DNA from: Thermopolyspora flexuosa
Lineage (GTDB): Bacteria; Actinomycetota; Actinomycetes; Streptosporangiales; Streptosporangiaceae
Direction: 5' to 3'
NCBI RefSeq assembly: GCF_006716785.1
Contig: NZ_VFPQ01000001.1
Span: forward strand, 1,426,001-1,490,000
DNA: 64,000 nt
Part shown: piece by piece, positions 51,466 to 58,903 of the stretch
Layout: each line of letters opens with the position of its first letter
Position numbering within the stretch: the stretch's first letter is position 1
Position numbers and translations under genes: made by a program
Notes under the pieces: generated by a model
Told to the model about the DNA's origin: nothing
Seen by the model: the letters and a program-made list of their open reading frames with translations, nothing else
Databases searched by the model: none

Positions 51466-52404
51466 TCACGACACGACGTCCTTGCGCCGGAAGCGCCGGA
51501 AGGCGAACGCGATGAGGATCGCCGCGTAGGTGACCGACACCGACGTGCCCTTGATCATGCCGCTGAAGTCCATGTCCAGCGCGAGGGCGTCCATCCAGGC
51601 GGTGTTCCAGTACGTGGGCAGGAACTCGCGCACCGAGCCCAGCGTGTCCACCGCCTGGAGGATGTTGCTCACGATCACCAGCCCGACCGCGCCGCCGACC
51701 GCGCCGAGCGGCGAGTCGGTGCTCACCGAGAGCAGGAACGCCAGCGCGGCGACGACCAGCTGGCTCACCAGGGCGTACCCGATCACGATGCCGAACCGGG
51801 GCAGCACGTCGAGCGCGGGGATCGTCTCGCCGGTGCCCGGCACGATGATGTCGTTCCAGCCGAACGCGAGCGTGCCGGCGATCAGCGCCATGACCGGCAG
51901 GCAGATCACCGCGGCCGCGGAGAAGCCGAGCGCGACGATCAGCTTCTGCCGCAGCAGCCGGTCCCGGGGGACCGGGGCGGCGAGCAGGTAGCGCAGCGAG
52001 GACCAGCTCGCCTCGCTCGCCACGGTGTCCCCGCAGAACAGCGCCACCGCCACCACGAGCAGGAAGTTCGCCGACACCGACAGGGAGAACGCGGCGAAGT
52101 TGAGCCCGCTCTGGGTGGCGAGGTCGGACAGCCGCAGCCCGCCCTGCCGCCCGGCCGGGCCCAGCTCGAACGCGACCACCAGGATCCACGGCAGCAGGAG
52201 CAGCAGGCCGAACATCACCGCGGTACGGCGCCGCCGCAGCTGCCGCACGATCTCCACCCGCAGCGGCAGGGTGCGCCCGGCGGCGTAGCCGGGCGCGCCG
52301 CCGTGGGCGGTGCCGCCCGGCGTGCCGGTCGCCCTGCCCTTCGGGTCGTCCTTCGGGCCGGTGCTCGTCATGTCCGGTGTTGTGGCCCGGGCCGCGCCGC
52401 TCAT
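51466..52404 (-). CDS. ABC-2 type transporter permease
   Basis: 312 residues. Cytoplasmic Pro/Gly-rich head (1-50), then six TM segments: AVMFGLLLLLPWILVVAFEL, FLLVVAVALFC, LGFSAAAVICLPVMALIAG, IGYALVSQLVVAALAFLLSV, LGAVGGAVGLVIVSNIL and SVTYAAILIAFAF. DTVASEASWSSLRYLLAAPV is the typical ABC-2 coupling segment. ATG overlaps the stop of the hydrolase-ATPase fusion (ATGA, 52401-52404), so the two form one transporter. The final RRFRRKDVVS is the usual export-permease tail. Confidence 0.9.
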   Translation of the reverse strand: MSGAARATTPDMTSTGPKDDPKGRATGTPGGTAHGGAPGYAAGRTLPLRVEIVRQLRRRRTAVMFGLLLLLPWILVVAFELGPAGRQGGLRLSDLATQSGLNFAAFSLSVSANFLLVVAVALFCGDTVASEASWSSLRYLLAAPVPRDRLLRQKLIVALGFSAAAVICLPVMALIAGTLAFGWNDIIVPGTGETIPALDVLPRFGIVIGYALVSQLVVAALAFLLSVSTDSPLGAVGGAVGLVIVSNILQAVDTLGSVREFLPTYWNTAWMDALALDMDFSGMIKGTSVSVTYAAILIAFAFRRFRRKDVVS

Positions 52405-55049
52405 ACCTTCTCCCCGATCAGGTCCAGGAACACGTCCTCAAGCCGTCCCCGCGTGCCGTTCTCCGCGGCGGAGCCGAGCAGCTCGCCGACCGGCCCGGTC
52501 GCCACCAGCCGCCCGCGATGCATCACGACCACGTGCGTGCAGGTCTGCTCGACCTCGGCGAGCAGGTGACTGGAGACGATCACGGTACGGCCGTCGGCCG
52601 CGTACCGGGTGAGCACCCGGCGCATCTCGGCGATCTGCGGCGGGTCGAGGCCGTTCGTCGGCTCGTCGAGCACGAGCAGGTCCGGCAGGCCGAGCATCGC
52701 CTGGGCGATGGCGAGCCGCTGCCGCATGCCCTGCGAGTAGGTGCGCACCGGCCGGTCGACCGCCGCGCCGAGCCCGGCGATCTCCAGCGCCTCCTCCAGG
52801 TGGGCGTCCTCGGCCGGGCGGCCGGTCGCCCGCCAGTACAGCTCGAGGTTGGCCCGGCCGGACAGGTGCGGCAGGAAGCCCGGCCCCTCCACGAACGACC
52901 CCAGCCGGGACAGCACCGGCGCGCCCGGCGTGACCCGGTGGCCGAAGATGCGGATCTCGCCCGCGTCGGGGTGGATGAGCCCCATCAGCATGCGCAGGGT
53001 GGTGGTCTTGCCCGCGCCGTTCGGGCCGAGCAGGCCGAGCACCTGGTTGCGCTCGACCCGGAACGACAGGTCGTTCACCGCGAACTCGCCGTCCCGGTAC
53101 CGCTTGGTGAGGCCGGTGATCACCAGCGGCACGTCGCGCAGCTCGGGGTCGGCGTCGCGGTCCTCGCGGCGGCGCCGCCGCCCGGCCAGCGTGATCGCCA
53201 CCGCGGCCGCGACCGCGGCGAGCGGCAGCGCCCACGTCCAGGCGTCCGGGCCGGTGGCGGGCGCGGCGAGCTCCGGCGCGAGCGGCACGGTCACCGCGGG
53301 CTCGGCGAGCGCGACCCGGTGCACCGCGGCCTTGGCCGGGTTCGCGTACGCCATGTCCGTGGTGCTGACCACGAGCCGCAGCCGGTGGCCCACGTCGAAG
53401 GAGTGGTCGATGGCGGGCAGTGTGACCGCCACGTCGGTCCCCGACCCACTGGCCCGCACCTTGAACGGCGCCACCTGGCCCTCGGGCAGCGTGGCCTGCC
53501 CCGGCGCGGTCTCGTCGTACAGCTTGGCGAACAGCGTCACCTCGCCCTCGCCGTACACCCGCAGGCGCACGGTGGGCGCGCCGGTCACGGTGAGCGGCCG
53601 GGTGAGCGGCTCGGAGGCGAAGGTCGCGAACTGGCCCGGCATGTCGACCGCGACCCCGAACCCGCCGCCCCCGCCGGCGATGCCCGCCAGGCCGGGCACC
53701 GCGGAGATCGCCGCGGGCGAGCCGCCGGGCGGGGACGCCACCGGCTGGGCCGGGCCCGCGAGCGGGACGCGCCGGGTCTGGGTGCCGGCGAGCCCCGGGT
53801 AACGGCCGGAGGTGGCGTGCACGAGCACCGGGCGCCGGGTGCCCGGGTCACGGCCGCCGTCCCGGGTCACCGTGAAGGCGGGCGCCGCCGCCTCGGCCGC
53901 GTCGGTGCGCTTGAGGTACCGGTCGAACCAGGCGACGATCTGCTCGTCCACCCAGTCGGTCTCGTCGTCCCCGCCGTCGTGGCCGCCGGCGTACCAGGCC
54001 ACCCGGACCGGCGCGCCGGTCGCGGCGATCGCGCGGGCGTTCGCGTCGGCGTGGGAGAGCGGGAACAGCGAGTCGCGCTGCCCCTGGATGAGCAGCGTGG
54101 GCACCCGGATGCGGCCCTCGACCGAGATCGGGCTGGACCGGCGCAGCAGCTCGATCGCCTCGGGCGTGGGCGTGCCGGTCTCCGCGACCTGCCGGTAGAT
54201 GTCGCAGATCTCCGGCAGGAACCGCCCGCACCGCACCTCCTGCTCGGTCGGCGCGCGCCCCTGCCCGCGGGTCGCGGACGGGGAGGGCCGCCCGGACCCG
54301 TCCGGGGCCGTGCCGGCGTCGTCCCGGCCCGCCTCGTTCCCGCCGTCGGGGCCGCCCCCGGCGCCCCCGGCCGCGCCGCCGAGGCCGCCGACCCCGCTGA
54401 TCGACGGGGTGCCGCCGCCCCGGTTGAAGAACAGGCCCGCCCACATGCGCTTGAACACCCCGTTCTCCGGGCCGCCGCCGGTGGCGTTGGGGAACAGCGC
54501 GTCGGCGAGGTCGTGCCAGGTGATCATCGGGACGATGGCGTCCACCCGCGTGTCGTAGGCGGCGGTCATGAGCGCGATCGCGCCGCCGTATGAGGCGCCG
54601 GTCATGCCGACCCGCGGGTCGCCGGGCGCGTCGAGCACCACCTCGGGCCGCTTCGCCGCCCAGTCGATGAGCTGCTTGACGTCCTTGACCTCGTAGTCGG
54701 GGGAGTTGAGCGCGATCTGCCCGGTGGAGCGGCCGAAGCCGCGGGCCGACCAGGTGAGCACCGCGTACCCCTGCCGGGCGAGCAGCATCGCCTGCTCGCG
54801 CACGCTCTGCTTGCTGCCGCCGAACCCGTGGCCGAGCAGCACGAGCGGCCCGCGGCCGCCGCCCGCCGGCGGGAAGAACGTCGCGTCGATCGTGACCCGC
54901 TGGTCGTCCGCGGGCCCGTCCACGACGGTGATGGTATGGTCCTCGCCCCGCACCTCCGGGCCGGACGGCCACAGCACCCATCCGACGGTGGCGAGGAGCA
55001 TCAGCGCGACCAGCACGATCGCCGGTCGGCGTCCGCCGAGCAGCTTCAT
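52401..55049 (-). CDS. Fusion of an X-Pro dipeptidyl-peptidase-like hydrolase with an ABC ATPase
   Basis: 882 residues. TM1 (about 10-27), an extracellular alpha/beta hydrolase of the CocE/S15 type (about 40-580: VLLGHGFGGSKQSVREQAML, nucleophile in GMTGASYGGAIALM, then VAWYAGGHDGGDDETDWVDE with a His of the triad, then a C-terminal jelly-roll), TM2 (about 605-625, WALPLAAVAAAVAITLAG), and a complete cytoplasmic ABC ATPase (637-870: LLGPNGAGKTTTLRML, YSQGMRQRLAIAQAML, LLVLDEPTNGLDPPQI). Start MKLLGGRRPA at 55049. It couples an outside peptidase or esterase to export through the adjacent permease. Substrate unknown. Confidence 0.9.
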   Translation of the reverse strand: MKLLGGRRPAIVLVALMLLATVGWVLWPSGPEVRGEDHTITVVDGPADDQRVTIDATFFPPAGGGRGPLVLLGHGFGGSKQSVREQAMLLARQGYAVLTWSARGFGRSTGQIALNSPDYEVKDVKQLIDWAAKRPEVVLDAPGDPRVGMTGASYGGAIALMTAAYDTRVDAIVPMITWHDLADALFPNATGGGPENGVFKRMWAGLFFNRGGGTPSISGVGGLGGAAGGAGGGPDGGNEAGRDDAGTAPDGSGRPSPSATRGQGRAPTEQEVRCGRFLPEICDIYRQVAETGTPTPEAIELLRRSSPISVEGRIRVPTLLIQGQRDSLFPLSHADANARAIAATGAPVRVAWYAGGHDGGDDETDWVDEQIVAWFDRYLKRTDAAEAAAPAFTVTRDGGRDPGTRRPVLVHATSGRYPGLAGTQTRRVPLAGPAQPVASPPGGSPAAISAVPGLAGIAGGGGGFGVAVDMPGQFATFASEPLTRPLTVTGAPTVRLRVYGEGEVTLFAKLYDETAPGQATLPEGQVAPFKVRASGSGTDVAVTLPAIDHSFDVGHRLRLVVSTTDMAYANPAKAAVHRVALAEPAVTVPLAPELAAPATGPDAWTWALPLAAVAAAVAITLAGRRRRREDRDADPELRDVPLVITGLTKRYRDGEFAVNDLSFRVERNQVLGLLGPNGAGKTTTLRMLMGLIHPDAGEIRIFGHRVTPGAPVLSRLGSFVEGPGFLPHLSGRANLELYWRATGRPAEDAHLEEALEIAGLGAAVDRPVRTYSQGMRQRLAIAQAMLGLPDLLVLDEPTNGLDPPQIAEMRRVLTRYAADGRTVIVSSHLLAEVEQTCTHVVVMHRGRLVATGPVGELLGSAAENGTRGRLEDVFLDLIGEKV

Positions 55050-55168
55050 GCGGCAGAGCCTACTGCCGACTGCTGAGAGATCTATGAGACAAACCGCCGC
55101 GCACCCTCCCACGGCGCCCGCCCGCCGCCGCGTACGGCCCGGCCGTCACGCCCGTGACCTCGGGCTTC

Positions 55169-55268: not shown

Positions 55269-56282
55269 TCACCGCTGCCGGGGCGGGGCGGTGCTCTCCC
55301 GGATCATCAGGTCGGTGGCGAGCTCGACCCGGGACGGCTCGGGCTTGCCGCCGCGGCCGATGGTGAGCACCATGCGCGTGGCGAGCGCGGCCATCTCCTG
55401 CAGCGGCTGGCGCACCGTGGTGAGCGGCGGCCAGGCCGAGCGGGCGAGCGGCAGGTCGTCGAACCCGACCACGCTCAGGTCGTCGGGGACCCGCAGCCCG
55501 CGCTGCCGGGCGGCCTCGAACACCCCGAACGCCTGCAGGTCGCTTCCCGCGAAGATGGCGGTCGGCGGGTCGTCGAGGTCGAGCAGCGCGTGCCCGTGGT
55601 CGTGCCCGGAGTTGACGAGGAAGTCGCCGTACCGGATGAGCTCGGGGTCGATCGGGATGCCCGCGGTCTCCAAAGCGGCCTTGTAGCCGTCGATCCGGGC
55701 CCGGCTGCACAGCATGTCGGCGGGGCCGCCGATCATGCCGATGCGGCGGTGGCCGAGCTCGATCAGGTGGCGGGTGGCGGCGAGGCCGCCGTTCCAGTTG
55801 GTGGCGCCGACCGACGGCACGCCCGGCGCGGGCTCGCCCTCCGGGTCCACCGTGACGAACGGGATGGACCGGGCGGTGAGCTGCCCGCTCTGCCGCGCCG
55901 ACAGCCGGGAGCCGATGATGATCACCCCGTCGGTACGGCGGGCCGCGATGCGGTCCACCCAGTCGCGGCCGGGACCGGCGTGGGTGTGCAGCACCGAGAT
56001 GACCACGCTGGCGTCGGCCTCGTGGGCGGCCTGTTCGGCGCCGCGGATCAGCTCCATCGCCCACGGGCTCTCGATCTCGGCGAAGACCAGGTCGATGAGT
56101 CCGACCGGCCCGTCCCCCTGCCCGGTGCGCCGCTGGTAGCCGTGCTTGTGCAACAGACGCTCGACGCGCTGCCGGGTCTCGGGGGCAACCTCGGGCCTCC
56201 CGTTGATGACCTTGGAGACCGTGGGGATCGAAACCCCGGCCTCCTCGGCGATCAGCGCGATGGTCACTCGCCTTTTCTGCAT
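55269..56282 (-). CDS. LacI family repressor (XlnR/BxlR-like by operator type)
   Basis: 337 residues. N-terminal LacI HTH (VTIALIAEEAGVSIPTVSKV with hinge NGRPEVAPETRQRV), then the periplasmic-binding-type effector domain (LIDLVFAEIESPWAMELIRG, SVGATNWNGGLAATRHLIEL, GFDDLPLARSAWPPLTTVRQ). ATG at 56282. A perfect CCGAAA-GT-TTTCGG dyad 14 nt upstream suggests autoregulation, and two more such sites lie further upstream. These fit the GAAANTTTC operators of Streptomyces xylanase repressors, so the ligand may be a xylo-oligosaccharide; no xylanase gene is in the window. Confidence 0.9.
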   Translation of the reverse strand: MQKRRVTIALIAEEAGVSIPTVSKVINGRPEVAPETRQRVERLLHKHGYQRRTGQGDGPVGLIDLVFAEIESPWAMELIRGAEQAAHEADASVVISVLHTHAGPGRDWVDRIAARRTDGVIIIGSRLSARQSGQLTARSIPFVTVDPEGEPAPGVPSVGATNWNGGLAATRHLIELGHRRIGMIGGPADMLCSRARIDGYKAALETAGIPIDPELIRYGDFLVNSGHDHGHALLDLDDPPTAIFAGSDLQAFGVFEAARQRGLRVPDDLSVVGFDDLPLARSAWPPLTTVRQPLQEMAALATRMVLTIGRGGKPEPSRVELATDLMIRESTAPPRQR

Positions 56283-56296
56283 GTCGAGAAGTGTAT

Positions 56297-56310
56297 CCGA
56301 AAGTTTTCGG
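56297..56310. promoter_or_regulatory. LacI-type operator at its own gene
   Basis: CCGAAAGTTTTCGG, a perfect 6-2-6 dyad 14 nt upstream of the LacI ATG. It belongs to the GAAANTTTC operator type known from actinobacterial xylanase regulators. Confidence 0.6.
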
Positions 56311-56408
56311 GCACCGCCCGCCGGGTGACGCCGTGCCGTACCGTTCCGTGCCGATCTCCCCGTGACCGCAGGGTCATCGACGTCACGGGAGCAATACCGG
56401 CAACCCTA

Positions 56409-56438
56409 TTGACGAGCGGCCCGGGTTTTGCGTAGCCT
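56409..56438 (+). promoter_or_regulatory. Plus-strand promoter upstream of orphan transcript
   Basis: TTGACG (-35) and TAGCCT (-10) with an 18-nt spacer. Transcription would start near 56445, at the edge of the next operator-like dyad. Confidence 0.45.
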
Positions 56439-56446
56439 CCGGAGCA

Positions 56447-56477
56447 CGAAACATTCGGGAAGTTGGCGAAAGTTTCG
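56447..56477. promoter_or_regulatory. Two GAAANTTTC-type operators just downstream of the orphan promoter
   Basis: CGAAACATTCG (56447-56457, one mismatch in the dyad) and CGAAAGTTTCG (56467-56477, perfect) lie at about +1 and +22 of the inferred start, a typical repression position for a LacI protein. Confidence 0.5.
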
Positions 56478-56550
56478 ATCGGTGCCCCCGCAGAGGGGGC
56501 GCGGGGCGCGCCGATGACCCAGACGTCCGGCCGGACGGGGCCGGACAACC

Positions 56551-56596
56551 GGGCTTGTGTGGTCCCGTTTTGGAGCGCGCGGGATCACACAAGCCC
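56551..56596. repeat. Strong 17-bp hairpin in divergent region
   Basis: GGGCTTGTGTGGTCCCG (56551-56567) and CGGGATCACACAAGCCC (56580-56596) pair along all 17 positions with a single G-U. Loop 12 nt; TTTCC follows. A terminator for a short transcript from the promoter near 56440 is the simplest reading. Confidence 0.6.
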
Positions 56597-56927
56597 TTTC
56601 CATTTGTCGCCGCCGTCGCCTCGTTCGTTCGCCCGTGTCCCGGCGGCCCGGGTGCGCCCCGGCGCCGGACGCCGCGCCGCGGGCGGGATGCCGCCCTCGC
56701 CGTCATGCTCCGCCGTCACCTCGGCCGCGTGGTTCCCTCGTCTCCCTGGGAACGCGCCCGGGCGATCGGATCGCCGGCACACCGTACCGGACATACCGCC
56801 CCCCGGTTTCGCCGGGGTGACCGATGCCAACCCGGCTGGGTCACTCTTCATCCCGGGTGGTACAGGACCACACTGACTCGCGCAATGTCAGCGAGCCATC
56901 GCAGACGGTGAATGCGATCCTGCCGCC

Positions 56928-57878
56928 ATGGCAGCGCCTCCCGCTCCGCGCCCGTTCCTCGGGGCCGCTCTCCTCCTCTTCGTCAGCGCCGCATGGGGGT
57001 CGGCGTTCCCGCTGACGAAGGACGTGATCGATCGTATGCCCGTCGCCGACCTGCTCACCGAGCGCTACGCGATCGCGACGCTCGCCCTCGTCGCGGTGCG
57101 GCCCCGGTGCCTCGCCGGGCTGCCGCGCCGTACCTGGCTCACCGGGGTGTTCGCCGGCCTGCTGTTCGGCTCCGGCCAGACCGCGCAGTCGGTCGCGCTG
57201 CACGAGCTGCCGAGCACGGTCTCCGGCTTCGCGGTCGGCACCTACGTGGTGATCACCCCGCTGCTCGGCATGCTCTTCCTGGGCGCCCGCATCGCCGCCC
57301 GGGTGTGGCTCGCCGCCGGGCTCGCCCTCGCCGCGCTCACCGTGTTCACCCTGCTCCGCGACGCGCAGGACACCGAGATCTCGCTGCCCGCGCTCGTGCT
57401 CACCCTGCTCGCCGCGGTCCTGTACGCGGTGCATGCCCTCGTGCTCGGCCACCGGCGCCGCCACGCCTACGCGGTCGCGGTCATCCAGCTCGGCACGATC
57501 GCGGTGCTCACCGGGGTGGCGGCGCTGCCCGGCGGCCTCGCGCTGCCGGGCAGCACGGCCGACTGGCTGGTGCTGCTGCACCTCGCCCTGGTCGCCTGCG
57601 CCCTCGGCTTCCTCGCCCGGTCGTTCGCCCAGCAGCACGTGCGCCCGGTGACCGCCGCGGTCATCCTCGCCGCCCAGCCGCTGTGGGTCACCGCGTTCTC
57701 CGTCGTGCTGTACGGCGATCCGCTCACCTGGCGGGTGTTCGTCGGCGGCGCGCTCACCGTCGTGGCCGTGCTGCTCGTGCTGCCGAACAAAGCGGTTGAC
57801 CTGGAGTGCACTCCAGGTGGCAGAGTCGGGAGCCGGACAACCCACGCGACCGAGAGCAAACGAGAGGAGTCACGGTGA
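56928..57878 (+). CDS. DMT family transporter (EamA domains)
   Basis: 316 residues with ten TM segments in two EamA repeats (ALLLFVSAAWGSAFPLTKDV near the N-terminus, GFAVGTYVVITPLLGMLF, LLAAVLYAVHALVLGH, PVTAAVILAAQPLWVTAFSV). Exports or imports small metabolites; substrate unknown. The last 25 residues are a polar tail encoded by DNA that also holds the MerR-type promoter of the next gene. Stop overlaps the aldo-keto reductase start (GTGA, 57875-57878). Confidence 0.9.
   Translation: MAAPPAPRPFLGAALLLFVSAAWGSAFPLTKDVIDRMPVADLLTERYAIATLALVAVRPRCLAGLPRRTWLTGVFAGLLFGSGQTAQSVALHELPSTVSGFAVGTYVVITPLLGMLFLGARIAARVWLAAGLALAALTVFTLLRDAQDTEISLPALVLTLLAAVLYAVHALVLGHRRRHAYAVAVIQLGTIAVLTGVAALPGGLALPGSTADWLVLLHLALVACALGFLARSFAQQHVRPVTAAVILAAQPLWVTAFSVVLYGDPLTWRVFVGGALTVVAVLLVLPNKAVDLECTPGGRVGSRTTHATESKREESR
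57796..57826 (+). promoter_or_regulatory. MerR-type promoter with 20-bp palindromic operator
   Basis: TTGACC (57796-57801) and CAGAGT (57821-57826) are separated by 19 nt, the over-long spacer typical of MerR-activated promoters. The perfect palindrome ACCTGGAGTGCACTCCAGGT (57799-57818) fills the spacer. It lies inside the 3' end of the transporter gene, 49 nt upstream of the aldo-keto reductase GTG. Confidence 0.75.
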
Positions 57879-58903
57879 GCGTTGCCAAGCGGACGCTCGG
57901 CCGCAGCGGCATCGAGGTCAGCGCGATCGGGTTCGGCGCCTGGGCGATCGGCGGCCCGCTGTGGTCCCCCGACGGCACCGCCCTCGGCTGGGGCGAGGTC
58001 GACGACGACGAGTCGCTCGCGGCGTTACGGCGGGCCCTCGAGCTCGGGATCACCTTCATCGACACGGCCGACGTGTACGGCGCGGGCCACAGCGAGCGGA
58101 TCATCGGCCGGGCGATCGCGGGCCGCCGGGACGAGGTGGTGATCGCCACCAAGTTCGGCAACGTGTTCGACGAGACCACCCGTACCCTCACCCACACCGA
58201 CGTCTCGCCCGAGTACATCCGGCGGGCCTGCCGGGCCTCCCTCAAGCGGCTCGGCACCGACTACATCGACCTCTACCAGCTGCACGTGGGGGACATGCCG
58301 CTGGAGCGGGTCGACGAGACCATCGCCACCCTGGAGGACCTCGTCGCCGAGGGGCTGATCCGCGCCTACGGGTGGAGCACCGACGACCCCGAGCGGATCG
58401 CCGCCTTCGTCAAGGGCCCGCACTGCACCGCCGTCCAGAACCAGATGAACCTGTTCGACGACGCGCCGCGGATCCTCGCCGTGTGCGAGGCCTACGACCT
58501 GGCGAGCGTGAACCGGGGCCCGCTCGCCATGGGCCTGCTCACCGGCAAGTTCTCGGCCGGGTCCACGCTGCCGCGCGACGACGTGCGCGGCATGAACCTG
58601 GAGTGGCTGACCTACTTCAGCGACGGCCGCCCGAACCCGGAGCTCCTCGCCCGGCTCGACGCGGTCCGCGAGATCCTCACCTCCGGCGGCCGCACCCTCG
58701 CCCAGGGCGCGCTCGGCTGGCTGCTCGCCCGCAACGGCCGTACCGTGCCGATCCCGGGCATCCGCACGGTCGCCCAGGCCGAGGACAACGCCGGGGCGCT
58801 GCGCCACGGGCCGCTCACCGCCGAGCAGTTCACCGAGGTGGAGACGCTGCTTCGTCGTTGGTCTCCGGATACGGCAGACGCAGTACGAACCGAGCCCCGC
58901 TGA
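57875..58903 (+). CDS. Aldo-keto reductase
   Basis: 342 residues, (beta/alpha)8 barrel. Catalytic tetrad region: Asp in FIDTADVYGAGHSERIIG (with Tyr), Lys in EVVIATKFGNV and His in YIDLYQLHV. SVNRGPLAMGLLTGKFSAG and RNGRTVPIPGIRTVAQAEDN form the cofactor-binding end. NADPH-dependent reduction of aldehydes or ketones. GTG at 57875 with GAGAGGAG upstream. A MerR-type promoter drives it, which suggests induction by electrophile, thiol or redox stress. Its last 74 nt overlap the convergent kinase gene. Confidence 0.92.
   Translation: MSVAKRTLGRSGIEVSAIGFGAWAIGGPLWSPDGTALGWGEVDDDESLAALRRALELGITFIDTADVYGAGHSERIIGRAIAGRRDEVVIATKFGNVFDETTRTLTHTDVSPEYIRRACRASLKRLGTDYIDLYQLHVGDMPLERVDETIATLEDLVAEGLIRAYGWSTDDPERIAAFVKGPHCTAVQNQMNLFDDAPRILAVCEAYDLASVNRGPLAMGLLTGKFSAGSTLPRDDVRGMNLEWLTYFSDGRPNPELLARLDAVREILTSGGRTLAQGALGWLLARNGRTVPIPGIRTVAQAEDNAGALRHGPLTAEQFTEVETLLRRWSPDTADAVRTEPR

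Follow-up and report, generated by a model that had tools for sequence, protein, structure and literature searches.

Organization of the lacI–DMT Intergenic Region

The window (the whole 64,000-nucleotide stretch of Thermopolyspora flexuosa DNA that was analyzed) contains a gap between a LacI-family repressor gene and a DMT transporter gene. The following features are located in this gap and at its borders:

55269–56282, minus strand: LacI-family repressor gene, 337 aa (Pfam LacI, PF00356, and Peripla_BP_3, PF13377)
56297–56310, unstranded: third operator-like dyad CCGAAAGTTTTCGG at the lacI 5′ end (match at this end in 80/80 ortholog loci)
56409–56438, plus strand: predicted promoter, TTGACG (56409–56414), spacer of 18, TAGCCT (56433–56438) (sequence; TTGAC box in 72/80 ortholog loci)
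56444–56600, plus strand: predicted non-coding transcript of about 150 nt with putative start and end (fold z-score, conservation block, no conserved frame)
56447–56457, unstranded: operator 1, CGAAACATTCG (sequence; exact in 21/80 ortholog loci)
56467–56477, unstranded: operator 2, CGAAAGTTTCG (sequence; its dyad CGAAACTTTCG is the BxlR site in the available text of PMC4743123)
56478–56515, plus strand: hairpin 1, 14 pairs, one bulge in the window copy (fold)
56525–56546, plus strand: hairpin 2, 8 pairs, same in the congener (fold)
56551–56596, plus strand: hairpin 3, 18 pairs, candidate terminator with a compensatory change at 56560/56587 (fold, congener comparison)
56928–57875, plus strand: DMT transporter gene, downstream of hairpin 3 and on the same strand as the promoter

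The first-pass annotation had described promoter boxes, two LacI operators, and a hairpin in this gap, and the sequence contains all of them where they had been placed. It had taken the two dyads to be identical; two operators are indeed present, but the first, CGAAACATTCG, is one mismatch from GAAANTTTC. Both the helix-turn-helix and the periplasmic-binding-like domain (PF00356 and PF13377) are present in the repressor, and a CGAAACTTTCG-type operator lies at the predicted regulated promoter. Adjacent transporter and glycosidase genes are absent; according to Pfam, the flanks encode an S15-hydrolase/ABC protein, the DMT transporter, and an aldo/keto reductase. The start of transcription is presumably near 56444, so both operators sit just inside the transcript. 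Consensus scans contain no entry for the TTGACG/TAGCCT promoter or for hairpin 3 as a terminator; the evidence for both thus comes from relatives and from conservation. With a single copy in its genome, the block is not a repeat element.

Two peculiarities of the neighboring genes can be noted. A single frame at 52401–55061 (minus strand) joins a PF02129 X-Pro-dipeptidyl-peptidase-like alpha/beta hydrolase to a PF00005 ABC ATPase; it resembles an unusual fusion and has matches to the left of lacI in several ortholog loci. An aldo/keto reductase gene lies between the DMT and histidine kinase genes of the window (57875–58903), and no aldo/keto reductase match is found between these two genes in L036, L055, and L075.

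Probable Loss of a Sugar Operon

LacI orthologs were compared in the best 80 of 224 relatives, all of them named (81–99% identity). With a loose pattern, operators are matched in all 80 loci on both sides of the gap, next to the lacI start and at the divergent end; the second sites of L069 and L071 are degenerate. On the divergent side, 68 of the 80 loci encode an ABC solute-binding protein (SBP) and/or a GH5 glycosidase, and the other 12 encode neither (L044, L045, L046, L047, L065, L069, L070, L071, L074, L081, L090, and L095). The ortholog of the window DMT gene is located further downstream in seven of the 68 gene-bearing loci (L055, L064, L067, L075, L078, L085, and L088; in L075 the GH5 match covers only residues 1–211 of 457). 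In the loci read, minus-strand genes separate the operon from the DMT gene, including an SDR-like frame named from its sequence, whereas in the window the DMT gene comes directly after the site. The GH5 protein of the relatives matches Pfam Cellulase; among solved structures, it is closest to 9ku5 (glycoside hydrolase/putative beta-xylosidase GE32 by its label; E 6.6e-97).

A search for this protein in 54 genomes gave matches in 15, ten of them near full length, and none in the window genome; the congener has only a 57% GH5 paralog on another contig. Since the window genome gave no GH5 match, a sugar operon once present at the site was probably lost by deletion. Judging by gene order, deletion of the operon together with the intervening minus-strand genes would be the simplest history; insertion in the relatives instead is formally admissible. 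The earlier suggestion that the operon once served by the site had been deleted, to be checked by looking in relatives for a lost glycosidase or transporter operon, is thus supported by synteny and by the GH5 search. The accompanying label "xylanase-type" is supported in part, by the operator 2 dyad, which is the site of the xylobiose repressor BxlR in the available text of PMC4743123, and by the putative beta-xylosidase closest to GH5.

The state of the promoter also varies with the presence of the genes. Of the 68 gene-bearing loci, 66 have the TTGAC box, compared with 6 of the 12 without genes (Fisher p 7e-5, calculated on related genomes, which are not independent); when the box is required 30–65 nt before the last operator, the count in gene-bearing loci is 65/68 (p 2e-4).

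Hairpin 3 was also considered as the terminator of the old operon, and the gap as a place of lost-gene remnants. The relatives' operon regions (the fetched ortholog loci minus that of the congener) were searched, with 60 first-order resampled sequences as a control. Resampled sequences matched at least as well in 53/60 cases for 56479–56520, 27/60 for 56521–56600, and 55/60 for 56479–56600. Both candidates were rejected, as their matches are no better than those of resampled sequences; the promoter–operator control was clearly above them (0/60). A borderline match to L075 was obtained for 56597–56927 (E 3.6e-4, 5/60 resampled at least as good), and there is no detectable trace of lost genes within the window. 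As for a leader hairpin common to GH5-first operons, 14 sequences align poorly, with a mean column identity of 55%.

In 19 of the 80 loci (e.g., L045, L046, L048, L071, and L074), a CelR-like box such as TGGGATCGCTCCCA occurs within 300 nt upstream of lacI, which suggests a second, cellobiose-type control in those gaps; the pattern was taken from the available text of PMC3377646. The window gap has no exact match to it, and the best one in 56283–56480 has 4 mismatches.

Predicted Structured Transcript

A 17-bp hairpin with a short T-tract had been reported for the downstream end of the block. The hairpin is there, with 18 contiguous pairs including G-U and a 10-nt loop (−35.3 kcal/mol over a 55-nt stretch), but the T-tract is poor: the tail 3′ of the stem reads TTTCCATTT in the window and TTCGTCATT in the congener, weak in both species. 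In 150 dinucleotide shuffles of 56283–56927, uninterrupted hairpins reached at most 15 pairs, compared with the 18 observed. Relative to 200 shuffles, the predicted RNA (56444–56612) has a fold z-score of −5.3. A scan of 56000–57200 with the Rfam 15 covariance models (E up to 1) gave no matches, so membership in a known RNA family from this collection was discarded.

Conservation and Distribution of the Element

The single congener met in the searches is G001 (locus L044, MAG ZC4RG28; 78% complete), and it has the same gene-less arrangement. The two species differ at 12 of 194 sites (6.2%) in the block spanning the −35 box through the hairpin (56401–56596), at 31/90 in the upstream flank (56311–56400), and downstream at 35/82 in 56597–56700 and 34/99 in 56701–56800; in 56801–56927, closest to the DMT gene, 19/125 sites differ. 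The contrast of the block with its near flanks is strong (Fisher p below 1e-8). However, the near flanks diverge beyond fourfold degenerate sites, so this contrast may partly reflect indels, misalignment, or replacement, and the flanks are not a clean neutral baseline. In lacI and the four genes around it, 189/1466 fourfold sites differ (10.4–16.5% per gene); compared with them, the block is significantly conserved (p 0.007; p 0.006 without lacI), while the excess for the leader and hairpins alone is modest (7/116, p 0.028).

These values bear on the possibility that the block is a neutral fossil, i.e., that the operon was deleted recently and that the promoter, operators, and junction are too young to have decayed. 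In its favor, two species represent little evolutionary time, and fourfold sites exceed the block in divergence by a factor of two rather than ten. Nevertheless, divergence in the block is below that of fourfold sites, the changes in its stems preserve pairing, and decay after gene loss does occur, as half of the 12 gene-less loci (6/12) are without the TTGAC box. We consider this explanation improbable.

All three hairpins are kept in the congener. Nine substitutions distinguish the two species in 56444–56596: four are at unpaired positions, and the five in stems are all pair-preserving, with 56483, 56486, and 56502 pairing via G-U and 56560 and 56587 forming a compensatory pair. Across the two species, 78/78 scorable cells are paired. 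Conservation of the hairpin, on which the small-RNA reading of the first-pass annotation depended, is therefore found for hairpin 3, and pairing is preserved through stem changes in all three hairpins taken together. The covariance analysis proposed with that reading yielded one compensatory double change, and its shuffle control was uninformative (243/500). With the element present in just two species, this double change is the sole covariation available, and a statistical signal is impossible.

Three 1-nt indels (at 56507, after 56516, and at 56547) affect a bulge and linker bases, all of them unpaired. Their net effect is −1, and frames crossing the block are thereby broken. Open frames on both strands do cross the block in the window and could encode a small peptide or leader peptide. 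Given the disruption of these frames between congeners and the lack of Pfam matches for the three ORFs tested, coding is highly improbable. This agrees with the earlier statement that the transcript encodes no clear protein. Thus, between these two species, structure is kept without a conserved reading frame.

Another explanation is confined to DNA: the three operators would be kept for LacI autoregulation, through looping or titration, hairpin 3 would prevent transcription from the promoter from running into the DMT gene, and the RNA would be inert. The third dyad CCGAAAGTTTTCGG may well be an autoregulation site of lacI, and 56283–56310, where it lies, is fully conserved (28/28 bases same in the congener). 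LacI itself has 99.4% amino acid identity to that of the congener, compared with 86–92% for the proteins of the four surrounding genes. In addition, no other hairpin in the gap has as long an uninterrupted stem as hairpin 3, and the DMT gene follows it on the same strand. What this explanation leaves aside is the leader: hairpins 1 and 2 with their linker are as conserved as the operators (4/70 sites differ versus 2/35), and insulation needs none of them. We regard it as rather unlikely, though the strongest of these three rivals.

A covariance model of the three hairpins, run with strict filters on 250 genomes of the family drawn from a larger group, matched two genomes, those of the window and the congener (one of 68 genera). 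A DNA search of 60 genomes gave nine matches, and the whole block was found only in these same two genomes. G048 and G023 match the promoter–operator part, and the other five only 30–47 bases. Both searches confine the RNA part to the genus among the genomes searched.

Operator Sites Elsewhere in the Genome

When a pattern derived from the window site was searched with up to 3 mismatches, the 5.77-Mb window genome had two copies of the operator pair and no match to the reversed control pattern. Besides the window site itself, the pair immediately precedes an ABC SBP–permease operon (C1:2745150), and no match to the window LacI was found in the 19 kb read near it (E up to 1e-3). Thus, the repressor may have been retained for this sugar-transporter operon elsewhere in the chromosome.

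In a scan of eight other genomes, the pair was found at SBP genes away from lacI in G010, G013, and G023, at an SBP gene a few kb from lacI in G006, and at the lacI-divergent site in G001, G004, G010, G016, and G023. The sole site in G048 is near a LacI paralog of 35% identity. The congener G001 (78% complete) has only the orphan site and one degenerate match.

Single CGAAANTTTCG sites (up to 1 mismatch) number 39 in the window genome, compared with 12 for the reversed control pattern; their surroundings were read in part, in 20 stretches. All 39 are more than 30 kb away from the three GH10 genes, and operator control of these genes was rejected. Pairing of the RNA with the transporter leader was rejected as well, since 81/200 resampled leaders had a duplex energy at least as good.

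Two further sites of the window genome are worth recording. Three (T/C)GAAATTTTCG dyads lie within 300 bp (G000:C1:1770766–1771064, L154) before a lipoprotein frame that by eye resembles another ABC solute-binding protein. Near 718.9 kb (G000:C1:718879–718919, L155), CGATACTTTCG and CGAAAGTATCG dyads are 30 nt apart.

Gene-less Sites in Planotetraspora

In four Planotetraspora species (L045, L046, L047, and L074), the operon is absent, and the promoter, the operators, and a different hairpin persist. Their mean pairwise difference is 22.6% before the −35 box, 15.7% from the −35 box to operator 2, 15.1% from operator 2 to the hairpin end, and then 57.5% and 47.4%. The upstream edge is not sharp, given the first two values. 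The hairpin arms vary with pairing mostly kept, as judged by eye, with one C-A mismatch in L045; this hairpin has no T-tract. A fifth species (L071) retains the promoter and operator 1, and that hairpin is absent. Six further gene-less loci lack the TTGAC box. Planotetraspora silvatica (G023) keeps a short GH5-like stub, recognized by eye, and encodes a 59% GH5 paralog elsewhere.

Many copies of GTGATCATGCA / TGCATGATCAC are scattered after the orphan site, upstream of lacI, in L045, L046, L047, and L071; perhaps they are a dispersed palindromic repeat.

Comparison with Known Systems

BxlR-type regulation of Streptomyces xylan genes is a close parallel, sharing with the window a LacI-family repressor and a CGAAACTTTCG operator; the available text of PMC12772271 gives the operator type as CGAANxTTCG. 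As described there, bxlEFG, bxlA, and bxlR are found together, whereas the window has no adjacent structural genes and the enzyme of the relatives is GH5. Dyads like those of the window, GAAA(G/C)TTTC, occur at cellulase genes of C. acidiphila and, as TGAAANTTTCA, in A. robiniae; in the available text of PMC3377646 they precede genes and no gene-less sites are described, unlike the window site, which precedes none.

SgrS and Spot 42 are sugar-regulated small RNAs. The likeness is a short structured transcript under a sugar-responsive regulator; in contrast, the RNA of the window is a prediction and has no Rfam match. Searches of the open-access literature, at the level of abstracts, gave no match for a LacI-controlled small RNA in actinomycetes or for small RNAs born from lost operons.

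Possible Origin and Role of the RNA

The first-pass annotation left a choice between a sugar-controlled small RNA and the remains of a deleted operon. Both gain support and are compatible. For the small RNA this support is indirect: between two species, conservation has sharp limits and the stem changes preserve pairing. Taken together, the comparisons show that an operon present in relatives is absent here, that a unit with no conserved frame has been conserved, and that its operator pair recurs at a transporter.

We propose that the site is the promoter–operator region of a xylo-oligosaccharide-type operon, which in relatives consists of ABC transporter genes and/or a GH5 glycosidase gene divergent from lacI and which has apparently been deleted in this genus. 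Most likely, LacI still blocks initiation via the two operators just 3′ of the −10 box. A xylo-oligosaccharide-like sugar would free LacI, and RNA polymerase would then make a non-coding RNA of about 150 nt with three hairpins, ending at hairpin 3. This RNA might pair with a message, bind a protein, or be an insulated by-product. A deleted operon with a kept, regulated, and structured transcript seems to us somewhat more probable than all other explanations combined, and a sugar-induced structured RNA of this length, with predicted expression and function, is the leading reading. Granted that much, the chances that the RNA functions in trans are about even. That operon loss gave birth to a new regulatory RNA, so that the sugar signal acts via RNA where an enzyme acted before, is a tentative idea.

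To our knowledge, the origin of new bacterial small RNAs has rarely been caught in the act. If the idea is true, Planotetraspora would provide another example, since the same operators are followed there by a distinct conserved hairpin and by no gene. Relatives with an intact operon, a decayed promoter, or a promoter with a hairpin make the step from operon to RNA experimentally testable. Predictions of regulons based on operators should also be treated with caution, as they may point to promoters without genes.
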